DNA of 64,000 nt, taken from NCBI GenBank assembly GCA_017936745.1, contig JAGBEY010000006.1:1-64000 (forward strand). The letters run 5' to 3'. A model generated the notes under the pieces. That model ran no database searches and had not been told where the DNA came from. It saw nothing but the letters and a program-made list of their open reading frames with translations. Positions 16,604 through 53,391 of the stretch are shown here, piece after piece; position 1 is the first letter of the stretch; each line of letters begins with the position of its first letter. Made by a program: the position numbers and the translations under genes. Source of the DNA: Clostridia bacterium (GTDB lineage Bacteria; Bacillota; Clostridia; UMGS1840).

Positions 16604-16717
16604 ATGCTAAAGCATAAAATGAAATAAAATAAATCCTTATATCACACGCCGTCAGGCGTATTTCACATTGCGAAGCAATATTTCATAGCAAAGCTATTTC
16701 ACAAATCCAAAGGATTT
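16604..16717. repeat. Array of short palindromes with about 18-bp spacing
   Basis: Five mini-hairpins: ATGCT-AA-AGCAT (16604-16615), ACGCC-GTCA-GGCGT (16646-16659), ATTGC-GAA-GCAAT (16667-16679), ATAGC-AAA-GCTAT (16685-16697) and AAATCC-AAA-GGATTT (16703-16717). The last three start exactly 18 bp apart and are separated by a common TATTTCA(CA) word. The stems differ in sequence but keep pairing. The array abuts the terminator of a serine-recombinase remnant. No coding sequence lies here. Confidence 0.6.
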
Positions 16718-16720
16718 ATT

Positions 16721-17563
16721 TCATTGAAAAACGATACAGTTTTCACTGTATCGTTTTTCTGGTGGAGCAAGATTGCTCAAATCCGAACCTTGCCCCGATG
16801 GTATTCTAAATGTGCTTGTCTTGCTCGATGTGAGGTTATAAACCGATGTAATCTTAAACCATCCATCCGGCTCATCCCATACAGTAACAGAGTTTACGAG
16901 CAGGTCTATAATGTGTCTGCGGAAATCCTCATCCTCGATGTCTCCATTACAGAACTCAGTAAGCCACCATATAATATGTTCCTTTTCTAATACAATAATT
17001 TCATCCTGTGCAACAACGAGTCGCTTTTCGGTGGCTCGTTTTTGTTTTTCTAATTCCATCAGACGGGTAGTGAGAGCATCGGAATCCGCTCCCTTTTCTA
17101 CCATCTTAATAAGATTGGCTATACTTCTCTCTATTTCGTAGAGTTCCTGTGTGAGTGCAGGAACAAGGCTTTCATTTTCAATGTCGATTTTATTCTGTCT
17201 TACTGCGGCTTCTGCAAGTTCCTCGATGACTTCGGGTGTGAGGATTGATAAAGCATCCTCTACAACCGCTCTCTCGATGAAATCTTTCTTGACGGGTATC
17301 TTCTCGCAGGAATGGTATCTCTTTCTCGTGGAGCAGGTGTAATAGTGATATTTACCACCTAAGCGACCTGTGCCGCTCTCACCCGTCATAGTAGCCCCAC
17401 AATGACCGCAGAAGAGTTTTTGTGATAAAAGGTAATCTACCTTAGCCTTACCCCTCGCAGGTGCTTGTGCGTTGATTTTGAGCCGTTTCTGCACGATGTC
17501 GAATGTCTCCTTATCTACGATAGCAGGAACGCCACCCTCTATGCGAATATCCTTATATTTATA
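16721..17563 (-). pseudogene. C-terminal remnant of a large serine recombinase
   Basis: The in-frame text begins KYKDIRIEGGVPAIVDKETF (about 17563) and continues QKRLKINAQAPARGKAKVDYLL. The zinc ribbon follows (CGHCGAT ... C), then a coiled coil (ELYEIERSIANLIKMVEKGA), and WWLTEFCNGDIEDEDFRRHIID. The whole catalytic resolvase domain and most of the Recombinase domain are missing, replaced at about 17565 by an unrelated element gene. It is unlike the intact recombinase at 6887 (different zinc-ribbon and C-terminal text), so it marks a second, older element. Confidence 0.8.
16727..16758 (-). terminator. Terminator overlapping the recombinase remnant's 3' end
   Basis: AAAAACGATACAGT pairs with ACTGTATCGTTTTT around a 4-nt loop. 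The recombinase reading frame runs through it before stopping at 16721, which suggests the natural stop codon was lost. Confidence 0.7.
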
Positions 17564-19623: not shown

Positions 19624-20730
19624 ATGCGATTTACTTCCAATAGTAAGCATCGCTATACACGGCAACTAATTTTAATTATGATGAATGAATCGAAAATAAA
19701 AGAAAAGGTTTGTAACTTTGGAAACCTGTATGATGCTTTATGGAAATGTAAGCGTAATGTAGGTTGGAAAGATAGTGTTGCAGGTTATGTAAAGAACGGC
19801 TTGGTAAACTGCTTAACACTTAGGGAACAACTTATGAATGGTACATATGAGATAAGTAAATACACGATGTTCAAGGTTTACGAACCAAAAGAACGGGACA
19901 TAGTAAGCACCCGAATAAAGGATAGGGTGTTTCAACGAAGCCTGTGCGATAACTACCTTACCGAAGAAATATCACGCTCGTTTATCTACGATAACTGTGC
20001 GTGTCAAGAAGGTAAAGGTACGAAGTTCGCAAGAGACAGGCTCAAATCCCACCTGCAACGCTTCTATCGGAAACACGGCGTTGAGGGATATGTCCTTAAA
20101 TGTGATTTATCTAATTTCTTTGGTAGCACTCGCCACGATGTCGCTATTGCGGCAGTTGAAAAGCGTGTCGGTGATGCGTGGGCGGTCTCCGAAGTAACGA
20201 GAATAATCAAGAGCTTTAATCAAGGCGAGAATCCCGATGTAGGTATGGGTCTTGGGTCGCAGGTAACTCAACTCGTACAGTTGGCGGTACTTGATGACTT
20301 CGACCACTACATCAAAGAGCAATTACACATCAAGCATTACATTCGATACAACGATGACTTTGTTCTCATTCACGAGGATAAAGATTATCTCCGAAATTGT
20401 AAGGCGTTGATTGAGAAGTGGGTTACGGATTTAGGGTTAAAACTGAGTCCGAAAAAGACACAGTTGTTTCCGATAACTCAACCGATTCACTTCTTGGGTT
20501 TCAGTTTTCGATTGACTGCGACCGGCAAGGTTGTTATGAAACTTCTCCCGGAGAAAATCTCTCACGAGCGTAGGAAACTTCGTAAATTGGTGGCACGAGC
20601 GAAAGCCGGACACCTTACGAGAGAACAGGTCGATGAGTGTTTCAAGAGTTGGAAGGCTCACGCTGAACAGGGAGATACACACAATCTTGTAAGAAAGATG
20701 TACGAATACTATCAAGAATTATGGAGGTAA
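19624..20730 (+). CDS. DGR reverse transcriptase
   Basis: 368 residues from the ATG at 19624, chosen for AGGAGTG at 19614-19620; ATGs at 19603 and 19678/19681 are alternatives. RT motifs: VLKCDLSNFFGSTRHDV (motif A), GMGLGSQVTQLVQLAVLD (about 207-224; the SQ replaces the QG of group II intron RTs, a DGR hallmark), YNDD active site at about 242-245 in HYIRYNDDFVLIH, then LKLSPKKTQL and IHFLGF. It makes cDNA from TR with adenine-specific errors and delivers it to VR. The C-terminus ends 5 bp before the next phage gene's start. Intact by inspection. Confidence 0.95.
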   Translation: MRFTSNSKHRYTRQLILIMMNESKIKEKVCNFGNLYDALWKCKRNVGWKDSVAGYVKNGLVNCLTLREQLMNGTYEISKYTMFKVYEPKERDIVSTRIKDRVFQRSLCDNYLTEEISRSFIYDNCACQEGKGTKFARDRLKSHLQRFYRKHGVEGYVLKCDLSNFFGSTRHDVAIAAVEKRVGDAWAVSEVTRIIKSFNQGENPDVGMGLGSQVTQLVQLAVLDDFDHYIKEQLHIKHYIRYNDDFVLIHEDKDYLRNCKALIEKWVTDLGLKLSPKKTQLFPITQPIHFLGFSFRLTATGKVVMKLLPEKISHERRKLRKLVARAKAGHLTREQVDECFKSWKAHAEQGDTHNLVRKMYEYYQELWR

Positions 20731-22989: not shown

Positions 22990-23338
22990 TGGTGGAGATG
23001 AGGAGAATCGAACTCCTGTCCGAAAACGCATTCACAAAACTTTCTCCGAGCGCAGTTATCTGTTAGGATTCCCCACAAAGGCAGGTAGATAACAAACCAA
23101 CCTCTGCCGGTATCGTCTTAATACGGCTTATTACCCGACGAAAGACAATGAGTCGTTGACCACTAAATGATGCCCTGTCCTAAGCCGTGGTGCTCTCAGG
23201 CAAGACAGCCGCCGTAATTAGGCAGCGTAAGCTAAATTTTTGTTAGCGTTTAATTTTAAGTTTGAAGCTTTTATAGTTGCGCCCCACAACTGCTCGCTTA
23301 TCTTGCTTCAACATCCCCGTCGAAACCTTTACATCCCC
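22990..23338 (-). ncRNA. ssrA: Transfer-messenger RNA (tmRNA)
   Basis: On the minus strand the 5' end GGGGATG pairs with the 3' end CATCTCC-A-CCA (CCA encoded). AAAGGTTTCGACGGGG follows the 5' stem and GGTTCGAGTCC-like T-arm sequence precedes the 3' end. The tag frame reads GCT AAC AAA AAT TTA GCT TAC GCT GCC TAA, giving the degradation tag ANKNLAYAA. It rescues stalled ribosomes with SmpB, whose gene lies just upstream. Its 3' end faces the prophage remnant, a usual prophage att site. Confidence 0.95.
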
Positions 23339-50040: not shown

Positions 50041-50802
50041 TCATTTTTCTCTGCGTCTTCTCTCATACATACTGATGCCGGCGGCAACCGCAACATTGAG
50101 AGATTCAATTTCCCCGTTCATCGGGATAATATAAACACCGTCCAGTTTTTCCAGAAGTGCTTTTTCAATTCCATTTGCTTCCGATCCCATCATCAGTGCC
50201 GTTTTCCCGGGAAAATCTGTATCATAAATGGATTTTGCACAGTCTGTCAATGCCGCTCCATATACAGAATACCCCATTTGCTGCAAGGTTTCCACCGAAT
50301 CGGTCAGCTCCTTCACCCGGATGAGGTTGAGAGAAAAGATTGCCGACATAGCGGAGCGAACCACCTTGGGTGCATACACATCGGCACAGTTTTCATCCAG
50401 AATAATATCGGTAAATCCACTTGCCAGTGCAGTACGAAGAATTGTGCCTAAATTCCCGGGGTCAGAAACCCCGTTTAAAAGCAACACAGAAGAAGATGTG
50501 ATATCCCTTTCCTCAGGAATGGAAAACACAGCCGCAATCCCCTGAGGGGTTTTGGTATCGCAGACTTCTTTCAGCACAGCATCGGTCACCCGATAGACCT
50601 CTGTCTCCTCCGAAGCGGAAAACGGTTCGGAAAAATCCATATCGACGAACAGCATCTTCGGTGCTTGTTTTGCAATACTGTCACACACATTGCGATAGCC
50701 CTCTGCTAAAAACAGTCTGCTTTGCTCCCGATATTTTTTCTGCTTCAGTTTTTTCAGTTCGCACACAGTTTTGTTTTTTAAACTGGTGATTTCTTTTATC
50801 AT
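50041..50802 (-). CDS. TrmH/SpoU family RNA 2'-O-methyltransferase
   Basis: 253 residues. The N-terminal substrate-binding segment (SLKNKTVCELKKLKQKKYREQ) is followed by a SPOUT fold: LLNGVSDPGNLGTILRTALASG (motif 1), TALMMGSEANGIEKALLEK (motif 2), IPMNGEIESLNVAVAAGISMYE (motif 3). Methylates a ribose in rRNA or tRNA using SAM; the target base cannot be told. Confidence 0.9.
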   Translation of the reverse strand: MIKEITSLKNKTVCELKKLKQKKYREQSRLFLAEGYRNVCDSIAKQAPKMLFVDMDFSEPFSASEETEVYRVTDAVLKEVCDTKTPQGIAAVFSIPEERDITSSSVLLLNGVSDPGNLGTILRTALASGFTDIILDENCADVYAPKVVRSAMSAIFSLNLIRVKELTDSVETLQQMGYSVYGAALTDCAKSIYDTDFPGKTALMMGSEANGIEKALLEKLDGVYIIPMNGEIESLNVAVAAGISMYERRRREK

Positions 50803-50881
50803 ATTATAATCTCCCTAAGAAGATGTTGAAACTTGTTTCTGTTGATATGTATAGCATCGTACCACGAAGAAAAAATACACA

Positions 50882-51203
50882 GCTGATTCTTTGCTTTCTA
50901 ATTTGGCAAAAGAAGCAAGCAGGTCAGTTTTTTCCTGAGTGCCGCATACTCACTGTATGCAAACGAAGTAAAAAGCTGAGATGCGCCGCTTATACCCTAA
51001 CTCTCAATTTGGCAAAAGAAGCAAGTAGGTTGTGCATTTTTACGAATGCCGCGTACCGGGTGTACGCAAATGAGATAAAATGTACAAGATGCACCGCTGA
51101 TTCTTTGCTTTCCAATTTGGCAAAAGAAGCAAGCAGGTTGTGCATTTTTACGAATGCCGCGTACCGGGTGTACGCAAATGAGCTAAAATGTGCAAGATGC
51201 GCC
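50882..51203. repeat. Three tandem ~107-bp structured repeats
   Basis: Units at 50882-50987, 50988-51095 and 51096-51203. Each has AATTTGGCAAAAGAAGCAAG, then an outer stem enclosing an inner hairpin. The inner stem is GCATAC/GTATGC in unit 1 and GCGTAC/GTACGC in units 2 and 3. The outer stem changes from TCAG-T(n)/A(n)-CTGA in unit 1 to TTGTGCATTTT/AAAATGTRCAA in units 2 and 3. Pairing is kept although bases differ, so structure is under selection. Plus-strand frames cross the units but lack a ribosome-binding site and gene character. Lies between relA and the methyltransferase gene. Confidence 0.75.
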
Positions 51204-51213
51204 GCTTATTTTG

Positions 51214-53391
51214 TCAAATTCGTTTGGCAGCAATGACTCCCCTGACATTATTCAACCGAACCAGTACCTTTGATAACTGGTCCTGACCGGTGACTTCGAT
51301 GGTTAGGTGGATGAGACCGGTGCCGTCTTTGACAACTTTTGCAGACATAGCATTCACGGGGACTTTCATATCGTTCAAGGCAAGGGTCAAATCGACTAAA
51401 AGCCCGTTACGATCGGCAGAAGTAACTGCCAAATCCACACTGTGAGAGCTGCCATCCTCCACCGCCCAGGTGGCTTCTACCAAACGGTTTTTATCACCGT
51501 CTGAGCGTTCGATATCCCGCAGAGCAACACAATCTGCACGATGAATGGTAACGCCTCTGCCTCGGGTAATATAGCCGACTACCTTATCTCCGGGAACAGG
51601 AGAACAGCATTTTGCAGTTCGCACCAGACAATTGTCCTGCCCTTTTACGACAATTCCTTTTTTAATATGCTTTTTGGTTGCTTTTTCTTTATTGGCATTC
51701 TGAATACCATTCAGTATGCTGGTATCATCCGGAACACGGGTACGCTCCAGATAATCTTCAATTCTGAGGCTGATTTTTTCCGGCGTAATCCCACCATAGC
51801 CTACAATGGCATAAAAATCTTCCACTCTTGCAACACTGTATTTCTTGGAAATATAGCCGAATAATTCCTCGTTATCCACCAAATCCTTCAGGGTCATATC
51901 AAACTTCTTGATTTCTTTTTCCAGCATTTCCTTGCCCTTTTGGATATTTTCTTCCCGTTTTTCTTTCTTGAAAAACTGGTTGATTTTACTCCTTGCCTGA
52001 CTGGTACAAGCAATTTTTAACCAATCAGAATGAGGGCCGGAAGACGTGGCGGAGGTGATAATTTCCACAATATCACCATTTTGCAGTTTATGGTCAATCG
52101 GAACAATACGGTTATTCACCTTCGCTCCTACCATACGCCAACCAACGGCACTATGCACCATAAATGCAAAATCTATGGGAGTTGACCCGCTGGGGAGACT
52201 GTATACATCCCCTTTTGGGGAAAACACAAACACTTCATCCGCAAACAAGTCAATTTTAATGTGGCTGATATATTCAGAGGGATTAGAAAAATCTTTTTCT
52301 GTTTCCAGAAGCTGACGTACCCACTGGAACTTATCTCCTGAACTATTATGATTCTGCGAGCCTTCTTTATATTTCCAGTGAGCCGCAATGCCATACTCCG
52401 CTGTGCGGTGCATATCCCAGGTTCTGATTTGAATTTCAAAGGGAATCCCCGCACGGCTCACCAAGGTGGTGTGCAAGGACTGATACATATTCTGCTTCGG
52501 CATACTGATGTAGTCTTTAAATCTTCCGGGAATCGGCTTATACAGCTCATGCACACATCCCAGCACAGTATAGCACTCGTTGATATTTCCCACAATGATA
52601 CGAAGTGCAAACAAATCGTAAATTTCATCAATGGTGATATTTTTGGAGTACATTTTCTTGTAGATGCTGTAAAAATGCTTGGCTCTGCCTTCAATATGAG
52701 CCTGCACACCGATTTCTGAAAGCTTTTCCGTGAGCTGCTCTTTGATATCGTCAATAATTTCAAGACGCTGGGTTCTTTTTTTTGCAATGCCGGTGGAAAT
52801 TTCTTTATAACCGATGGGGTCAAGATATAACAGAGACAAATCTTCCAATTCCCATTTCAGATTATAAATTCCCAAACGGTGTGCAATGGGAGCATAAATC
52901 TCCATGGTTTCCAACGCCTTTTCCAGACGTTTTCCCTCCGGCATACTTTTCAAGGTTCGCATATTGTGGAGACGGTCTGCCAGCTTAATCAGAATCACAC
53001 GAATGTCCTTCGCCATCGCCATAAACATTTTTCTTAAGTTTTCAATTTGTTCTTCCTCTTTGGAGCTGAAATCAATCTGCCCCAATTTGGTAACACCGTC
53101 CACAATATTGGCAATATCCTCGCCAAATTCCTTTTTTACATAATCATAGCCATACTCGGTATCTTCAATCGTGTCGTGGAGTAAAGCAGCACAAATAGAC
53201 TCATCATCCAGGTTTAATTCAGCAATAATCTCTGCCACGGAAACCGGATGGTTATAGTAGGGTTCTCCGCTGCGCCGAAACTGACCTTCATGAGCCATTT
53301 TACAAAACCGATATGTTTTTTCCAACAACGCTTCGTTGCATTTTGGATTATACTTTTTTACCTTTTCCAAAAGACGGGCAAACTGTTCCAT
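51214..53391 (-). CDS. relA: Bifunctional (p)ppGpp synthetase/hydrolase RelA/SpoT
   Basis: 725 residues. HD hydrolase domain with YYNHPVSVAEIIAELNLDD and LLHDTIEDTEYG; synthetase domain with RAKHFYSIYKKMYSKN and DLFALRIIVGNINECY .. GRFKDYISMPKQNMYQSLH; TGS domain (DEVFVFSPKGDVYSLPSGST); zinc-finger region with CCSPVPGDKVVGYITRG; C-terminal ACT domain (GLLVDLTLALNDMKVPVNAM). Sets the alarmone level for the stringent response. The HD motif is intact, so it is probably a two-way enzyme. Confidence 0.96.
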   Translation of the reverse strand: MEQFARLLEKVKKYNPKCNEALLEKTYRFCKMAHEGQFRRSGEPYYNHPVSVAEIIAELNLDDESICAALLHDTIEDTEYGYDYVKKEFGEDIANIVDGVTKLGQIDFSSKEEEQIENLRKMFMAMAKDIRVILIKLADRLHNMRTLKSMPEGKRLEKALETMEIYAPIAHRLGIYNLKWELEDLSLLYLDPIGYKEISTGIAKKRTQRLEIIDDIKEQLTEKLSEIGVQAHIEGRAKHFYSIYKKMYSKNITIDEIYDLFALRIIVGNINECYTVLGCVHELYKPIPGRFKDYISMPKQNMYQSLHTTLVSRAGIPFEIQIRTWDMHRTAEYGIAAHWKYKEGSQNHNSSGDKFQWVRQLLETEKDFSNPSEYISHIKIDLFADEVFVFSPKGDVYSLPSGSTPIDFAFMVHSAVGWRMVGAKVNNRIVPIDHKLQNGDIVEIITSATSSGPHSDWLKIACTSQARSKINQFFKKEKREENIQKGKEMLEKEIKKFDMTLKDLVDNEELFGYISKKYSVARVEDFYAIVGYGGITPEKISLRIEDYLERTRVPDDTSILNGIQNANKEKATKKHIKKGIVVKGQDNCLVRTAKCCSPVPGDKVVGYITRGRGVTIHRADCVALRDIERSDGDKNRLVEATWAVEDGSSHSVDLAVTSADRNGLLVDLTLALNDMKVPVNAMSAKVVKDGTGLIHLTIEVTGQDQLSKVLVRLNNVRGVIAAKRI

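Follow-up and report, generated by a model that had tools for sequence, protein, structure and literature searches.

Between relA and an rRNA methyltransferase gene of a Clostridia genome (1.5 Mb, 20 contigs) lie three similar units that can fold, which raises the question of whether they form an RNA specific to relA or belong to something that is also found elsewhere. The features of this locus in the window, meaning the whole stretch of 64,000 nucleotides that was analysed, are as follows.

50041-50802, minus strand: TrmH/SpoU-type rRNA methyltransferase gene, the next gene downstream of relA, with its start at 50802.
50823-51236, plus strand: 137-aa ORF spanning the array, judged spurious.
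50900-50995, plus strand: unit 1, model core 50917-50987 (covariance model R1, E 3e-12).
51006-51110, plus strand: unit 2, model core 51023-51095 (R1, E 8.7e-15).
51044-51076, plus strand: apical module of unit 2, the same module as in unit 3.
51114-51220, plus strand: unit 3, a complete hairpin of about 107 nt, core 51131-51203 (R1, E 4.5e-16; MFE -39 kcal/mol).
51152-51184, plus strand: apical module of unit 3, GA-AT-GCC-GCGTAC-CGGGT-GTACGC-AA-AT-GA.
51214-53391, minus strand: relA (RelA/SpoT family, 725 aa), whose stop codon (51214-51216) forms part of the base of the unit-3 hairpin.

The family of the methyltransferase was assigned by reading the sequence, without a profile search. The ORF at 50823-51236 was rejected as a protein gene, since there was no conserved frame and the units start 106 (units 1-2) and 108 (units 2-3) nucleotides apart here and three times 107 apart in the array of the sister genome G001. 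Elsewhere in the window, a reverse transcriptase domain (PF00078, E 1.4e-16) was found at 19894-20505 of the plus strand in a 397-aa open frame; a Gut-1 structured RNA (RF01706) and a tmRNA gene (RF00023) lie on the minus strand at 16655-16726 and 22990-23338, respectively. The related genome G004 carries two PF00078 domains.

The preliminary description had reported three repeats of about 107 bp at this place, and these are present. The exchanges on which it relied can also be read in the sequence: the inner stem changes from GCATAC/GTATGC in unit 1 to GCGTAC/GTACGC in units 2 and 3, and the next stem from TCAG/CTGA to TTGTGC/GTACAA or GTGCAA, while the apical module of unit 1 reads GA-GT-GCC-GCATAC-TCACT-GTATGC-AA-AC-GA. 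These stems had been taken as two nested ones; the base changes stand, but both stems proved to be parts of a single imperfect hairpin of about 107 nt. Likewise, a hairpin linking the units (TTGCTT..AAGCAA with CCAATTTGG) can be drawn, but other members of the family do not conserve it; in them, AAGC and GCTT pair with each other in the base of the unit's own hairpin. In unit 3, the outer arm AATTTG (51114-51119) pairs with CAAATT (51215-51220), which is the stop and last codon of relA.

A search with the core pattern revealed two more sites, C9:165637 and C11:13443, in the source genome, and each of the four sister genomes had copies as well. The covariance model R1 was then built from 11 aligned copies with the hairpin written by hand as its structure, because misaligned outer arms in the first MAFFT alignment had allowed RNAalifold to recover the hairpin only partly. 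A genome-wide search of this kind had been proposed from the array alone, and it found more copies both in the source genome and beyond. Five to nine copies per genome, a few of them weak, were present in all five genomes of the genus, and R1 matched 32 of 391 Clostridia genomes with a patchy spread over 11 families, the richest being G109 (23 copies) and G288 (13); the genomes compared are in part MAGs. Moreover, each of the three Collinsella genomes tested had 7-12 copies. Scanning the GTDB contigs for the apical module gave 29 stretches where about one was expected by chance, comprising many from Collinsella, two from Chromatiales/Chromatiaceae MAGs, and others from a third gammaproteobacterial MAG, Acidaminococcaceae and Ca. 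Limadaptatus. The whole structure was recovered by R1 in Collinsella, with E values down to 1e-8. The match to the gammaproteobacterial candidates was weak or partial, and the copies of purple sulfur bacteria and their relatives are therefore probable, not proven, members.

No RNA family could be named for the units at the outset, and at the gathering thresholds of Rfam release 15 the array indeed had no match; nor did 15 Collinsella, Chromatiales and other loci, and in 20 Clostridia loci the only match was a neighbouring tmRNA. A text search of the literature for the core motifs and for Collinsella repeats returned nothing relevant. Matches were also absent from viral contigs, from phages (with a query of the Chromatiales type) and from plasmids, except for one 900-kb Collinsella record, so a phage or plasmid origin was rejected. 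The hairpin repeat family of about 105 bases thus appears to be undescribed in the literature and databases searched, and R1 provides a covariance model for a family that is absent from Rfam.

Each copy forms one imperfect hairpin of about 100-110 nt. Its apex is nearly invariant over 93 distinct copies and reads GA-NN-GCC-[6-bp stem]-AA-NN-GA, where NN stands for two covarying pairs and the loop is short. Below the apex follow a helix of about 10 bp, frequently with a tandem U.G/G.U step, and a second GA/GA; further down, the relA arrays and the copies of some other genomes have a second GCC/AA loop. In the 93 copies, 95.1% of the cells were paired, and 22 of 23 pairs had changes on both sides. 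The covariation score was 0.586 compared with 0.203 in shuffles (none of 500 shuffles reached any of the measures), and it dropped to 0.146 or less when the partners were slid. As the alignment of these copies had been fitted to the model, 21 copies from genomes unused before were held out, and they gave 93.8% pairing and a covariation score of 0.654 compared with 0.244 in shuffles. The preliminary description had claimed selection on structure. Three tandem units alone would be weak evidence of it, but the covariation of the same pairs over 93 distinct copies and in the independent set of 21 confirms the observed pairing and supports a constraint on structure. Furthermore, 111 paired double changes and 37 changes to G.U were counted at orthologous sites, compared with 54 broken pairs, which indicated that the structure is maintained in place after insertion.

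Some copies depart from the common shape. The inner units of two arrays behind ruvA (L033:1650-2100 and L035:1950-2250) have a different, shorter hairpin, e.g. TCAGCAAGCGCCGCGTAC...GGTACGCGTCATCTGCTGA, with new arms on an unchanged apical stem, so that array units can switch their fold. In G109, four loci (L133, L135, L137 and L142) carry extra hairpin-capable segments, inserted into the 5' or the 3' arm at constant positions, which are comparable to insertions known in ERIC.

The strand on which the structure is selected was read from the wobble pairs. With the helices read on the plus strand, 252 G.U pairs faced 27 A.C pairs, and without tandem wobbles the counts were 130 and 26. The ratio was 32 to 5 in the set of Collinsella and others, and 64 to 10 in the held-out set. 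In addition, the predicted RNA energy was more favourable for the plus strand in 86 of 92 copies, with a mean difference of 11.7 kcal/mol, and in 19 of the 21 held-out copies. The G.U excess and the predicted energy together indicated that the selected strand is the plus strand. A first reading from the apical UU.GG pairs had favoured a minus-strand 3'-UTR RNA, and this was ruled out by the G.U and A.C counts over all helices and by the held-out test. On the structural model, the selected form is the plus strand and at relA it is antisense to the transcripts of the two neighbouring genes. Since G.T pairs form in DNA too, these data fit a plus-strand RNA and a single-stranded DNA equally. Promoter scans of the copies stayed at chance level. 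Part of the covariation could stem from hairpin-templated (quasipalindrome) correction rather than from selection; we argue for selection because G.U pairs are in excess on the plus strand and because modules of non-Watson-Crick type are conserved.

The position of the copies relative to genes, which were called as simple ORFs, was counted once per gene. Fifty-six copies abutted only the stop of a minus-strand gene, 12 had stops on both sides and four abutted only a plus-strand gene, under a criterion that a random point meets in 6.7% of cases; 36 copies, including inner array units and those at contig ends, had no stop in range. The median distance to the stop codon was 13 nt. Among the held-out copies, 15 of 21 were near a stop (minus only 13, both two, plus only none), and six had none. 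The settings include the interior of operons as well as convergent gene pairs, and in an annotated Collinsella record a copy lies between cysS and rlmB in an operon-like run of genes. C-terminal sequences compared by eye, not by profile search, suggest relA, ruvA, argB, purH and mnmE among the host genes. Copies behind an argB-like C-terminus were seen in two different families of the class (L159 in G135; L070, L072, L185 and L187 in genus g1), and mnmE-like ends precede copies in G178 (L165) and in another Clostridia MAG (L204). At four G109 loci (L135, L137, L138 and L142), the element is followed on the gene-sense strand by a common segment of about 25 nt with an RBS-like GGAAGGA and an ATG, as if the copies carried a start region for the next gene.

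Beyond the common part, the two arms of a copy pair with each other and not with the arms of other copies. In a within-genome permutation, the summed score of own arms was 512 compared with 384 (SD 16), a value reached in 0 of 20,000 permutations. An arm score of at least 8 was found for 65 of 78 own pairs, compared with a mean of 15 (maximum 23) after swapping, and the pairing extended to stop or coding bases in 49 of the 78 copies, compared with a swapped mean of 13 (maximum 22). Because coding ends are under constraint, it is most likely the distal arm that is derived. Such locus-specific pairing can be produced by snap-back copying of the gene end, by quasipalindrome correction or by selection.

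Comparison of the sister genomes showed that sites are gained or lost. All five have relA next to the methyltransferase gene, and the interval between the two holds three units in G000 and four in G001. From the relA stop to the methyltransferase start it measures 17 nt in the empty G002 and G003, and in G004 it is a short spacer without a unit. An RNA specific to the relA locus was therefore rejected, as the repeat is dispersed and was gained behind relA in two of the five sister genomes. The ruvA-ruvB interval carries the repeat in G001, G003 and G004 but not in G000, and the intergenic region at purH of Collinsella has one of several versions or is short. G109 contains near-identical copies at different sites, which together with this presence/absence polymorphism is typical of MITEs. 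The termini pair, but are locus-specific. The empty sites compared (relA region and Collinsella purH) showed no clean target-site duplication, and no precise excision footprint was seen at the purH site. TA..TA occurs around several G109 copies only, so that a TA target-site duplication is not general. The Y1 (RAYT) transposase domain PF01797 was absent from six copy-bearing genomes (G109, G288, G254, G154, G135 and G235) and gave weak matches in g1 genomes, and no reverse transcriptase domain (PF00078) was detected in G288, G254, G154, G130, G001, G003 and two Collinsella genomes. With Y1 absent from six element-rich genomes and reverse transcriptase from at least eight element-bearing ones, neither is required as a resident partner, and RAYT/IS200 and a resident reverse transcriptase were set aside as mobilisers, although loss after spread is possible. 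Copy numbers were modest, and throughout the genus the same genes have kept their copies, a pattern that resembles a resident functional element more than a parasite.

Taken together, the repeat is probably, though by no means certainly, a dispersed chromosomal, non-autonomous and apparently mobile hairpin, comparable to REP and ERIC though without sequence relationship to them, in which selection acts on the plus strand, be it RNA or single-stranded DNA. A putative trans-acting factor would recognise this strand through the apical GA-NN-GCC/AA-NN-GA module, and new copies of the element would be placed downstream of stop codons. At such positions it may be tolerated or even useful, since of the two hairpins the mRNA would carry just the minus-strand one, which is weaker. 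Snap-back copying of the gene end probably gave rise to the distal outer arm or keeps it perfect, and tandem arrays such as that of relA would be secondary duplications. The minus-strand hairpin may tune how stable the 3' end of the upstream gene's message is or how its translation terminates; such effects have been reported for REP and ERIC, and an effect on the host genes is plausible because these analogues affect theirs.

A second explanation, which we regard as rather unlikely, is a resident cis-acting mRNA element, that is, an intercistronic or 3'-UTR hairpin which, from its place at the stop codon, would modulate the stability of the mRNA or the termination of translation and would move only rarely and incidentally. 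The strict position and orientation behind stops, the location inside operons (Collinsella cysS-rlmB, relA, ruvAB) and the persistence of copies behind the same genes throughout the genus, with compensatory changes in them, would all fit, as would the ribosome stalling by REPs near stops (PMC12306157) and the orientation-dependent effect of ERIC (PMC2229807). However, the better-conserved and more stable structure lies on the strand opposite the mRNA, and the host genes are unrelated housekeeping genes.

A bolder possibility, to which we give little credence, is a SINE-like or guide-like element spanning at least two phyla, whose plus-strand hairpin RNA would be recognised through the module by a putative enzyme and written antisense behind stops, with snap-back copying of the gene end. 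A retrotransposed, SINE-like RNA, with the plus RNA reverse-transcribed onto the sense-strand 3' end of the gene and the cDNA snapping back to leave an inverted outer arm, would account by one mechanism for the structure of the plus strand, for copies lying antisense and for outer arms copied from gene ends, but it is improbable given the eight element-bearing genomes in which PF00078 was undetected. A purely mutational quasipalindrome, in which replication template switching perfects and extends a short hairpin without selection, is very improbable and was already disfavoured: concerted changes in both arms and the extension into coding ends would follow from it, but such a process should have removed the mismatches of the conserved modules (GA/GA, GCC/AA, tandem UG/GU), and both the G.U strand asymmetry and the sequence common across genomes and phyla are left unexplained. 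An intrinsic, possibly bidirectional, transcription terminator is equally hard to believe, as the A-tract, hairpin and T-tract layout of the Clostridia copies is offset by a U-tract absent in Collinsella and Chromatiales copies, by the many copies inside operons and by a terminator scan at chance level.

Structure-conserved repeats are usually confined to a genus or family. The apparently mobile repeat that we favour is defined by shape and not by sequence, spans at least two phyla and is strictly placed, with copies lying antisense and at stop codons and with an outer arm from the gene's own end. The usual mobilisers are absent from several genomes. The repeat offers a testable case for how bacterial palindromic repeats move, and for a possible regulation of operons such as relA and ruvAB by hairpins at stop codons.

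Among known systems, the integron attC site is likewise a sequence-variable, structure-conserved hairpin behind a stop, with its folded strand opposite the coding strand; it carries R and L boxes (GTTRRRY/RYYYAAC) and goes with an integron integrase. The present repeat shares these four traits of sequence, structure, position and strand, but its constant part is at the apex and not at the base, where attC R/L boxes were not seen by eye, and its neighbours are housekeeping genes, not cassettes. The BOX, RUP and SPRITE repeats of pneumococci and the NEMIS-type MITEs of Neisseria are small, non-autonomous chromosomal repeats that can fold (PMC3049150, PMC2229807), whereas the present one has neither a fixed terminal inverted repeat nor a demonstrable target-site duplication, and its sequence diverges while its structure stays. 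REPs are palindromic extragenic repeats near stop codons, some within 15 nt (PMC12306157, PMC3733652), and those at 15 nt or less stall ribosomes (PMC12306157). The present repeat is also close to stops, but its unit measures about 105-107 nt, compared with a REP palindrome of 20-40 bp, and the Y1 transposase was not found in the six element-rich genomes. ERIC (IRU) is a long imperfect hairpin of about 100-130 bp, dispersed in intergenic and intercistronic DNA, mobile without an enzyme of its own and co-transcribed with its neighbours, and it acts on the upstream mRNA depending on its orientation (PMC2229807). The repeat described here is a single long hairpin in the same kind of DNA; it differs in that its better-folded strand is antisense, in its conserved GA/GCC-AA module and locus-specific outer arms, and in its occurrence in Clostridia, Collinsella and probably Chromatiales. 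There is also no sequence similarity, and blastn with the array found no match in 20,395 E. coli records. The repeat resembles the REP/ERIC/MITE class of small chromosomal repeats in the way it functions. In the defining traits that were tested, it departs from REP by its unit length and the missing Y1 transposase and from ERIC by its sequence, and it shares closeness to stops with REP, a long single hairpin with ERIC and presence/absence polymorphism with MITEs.
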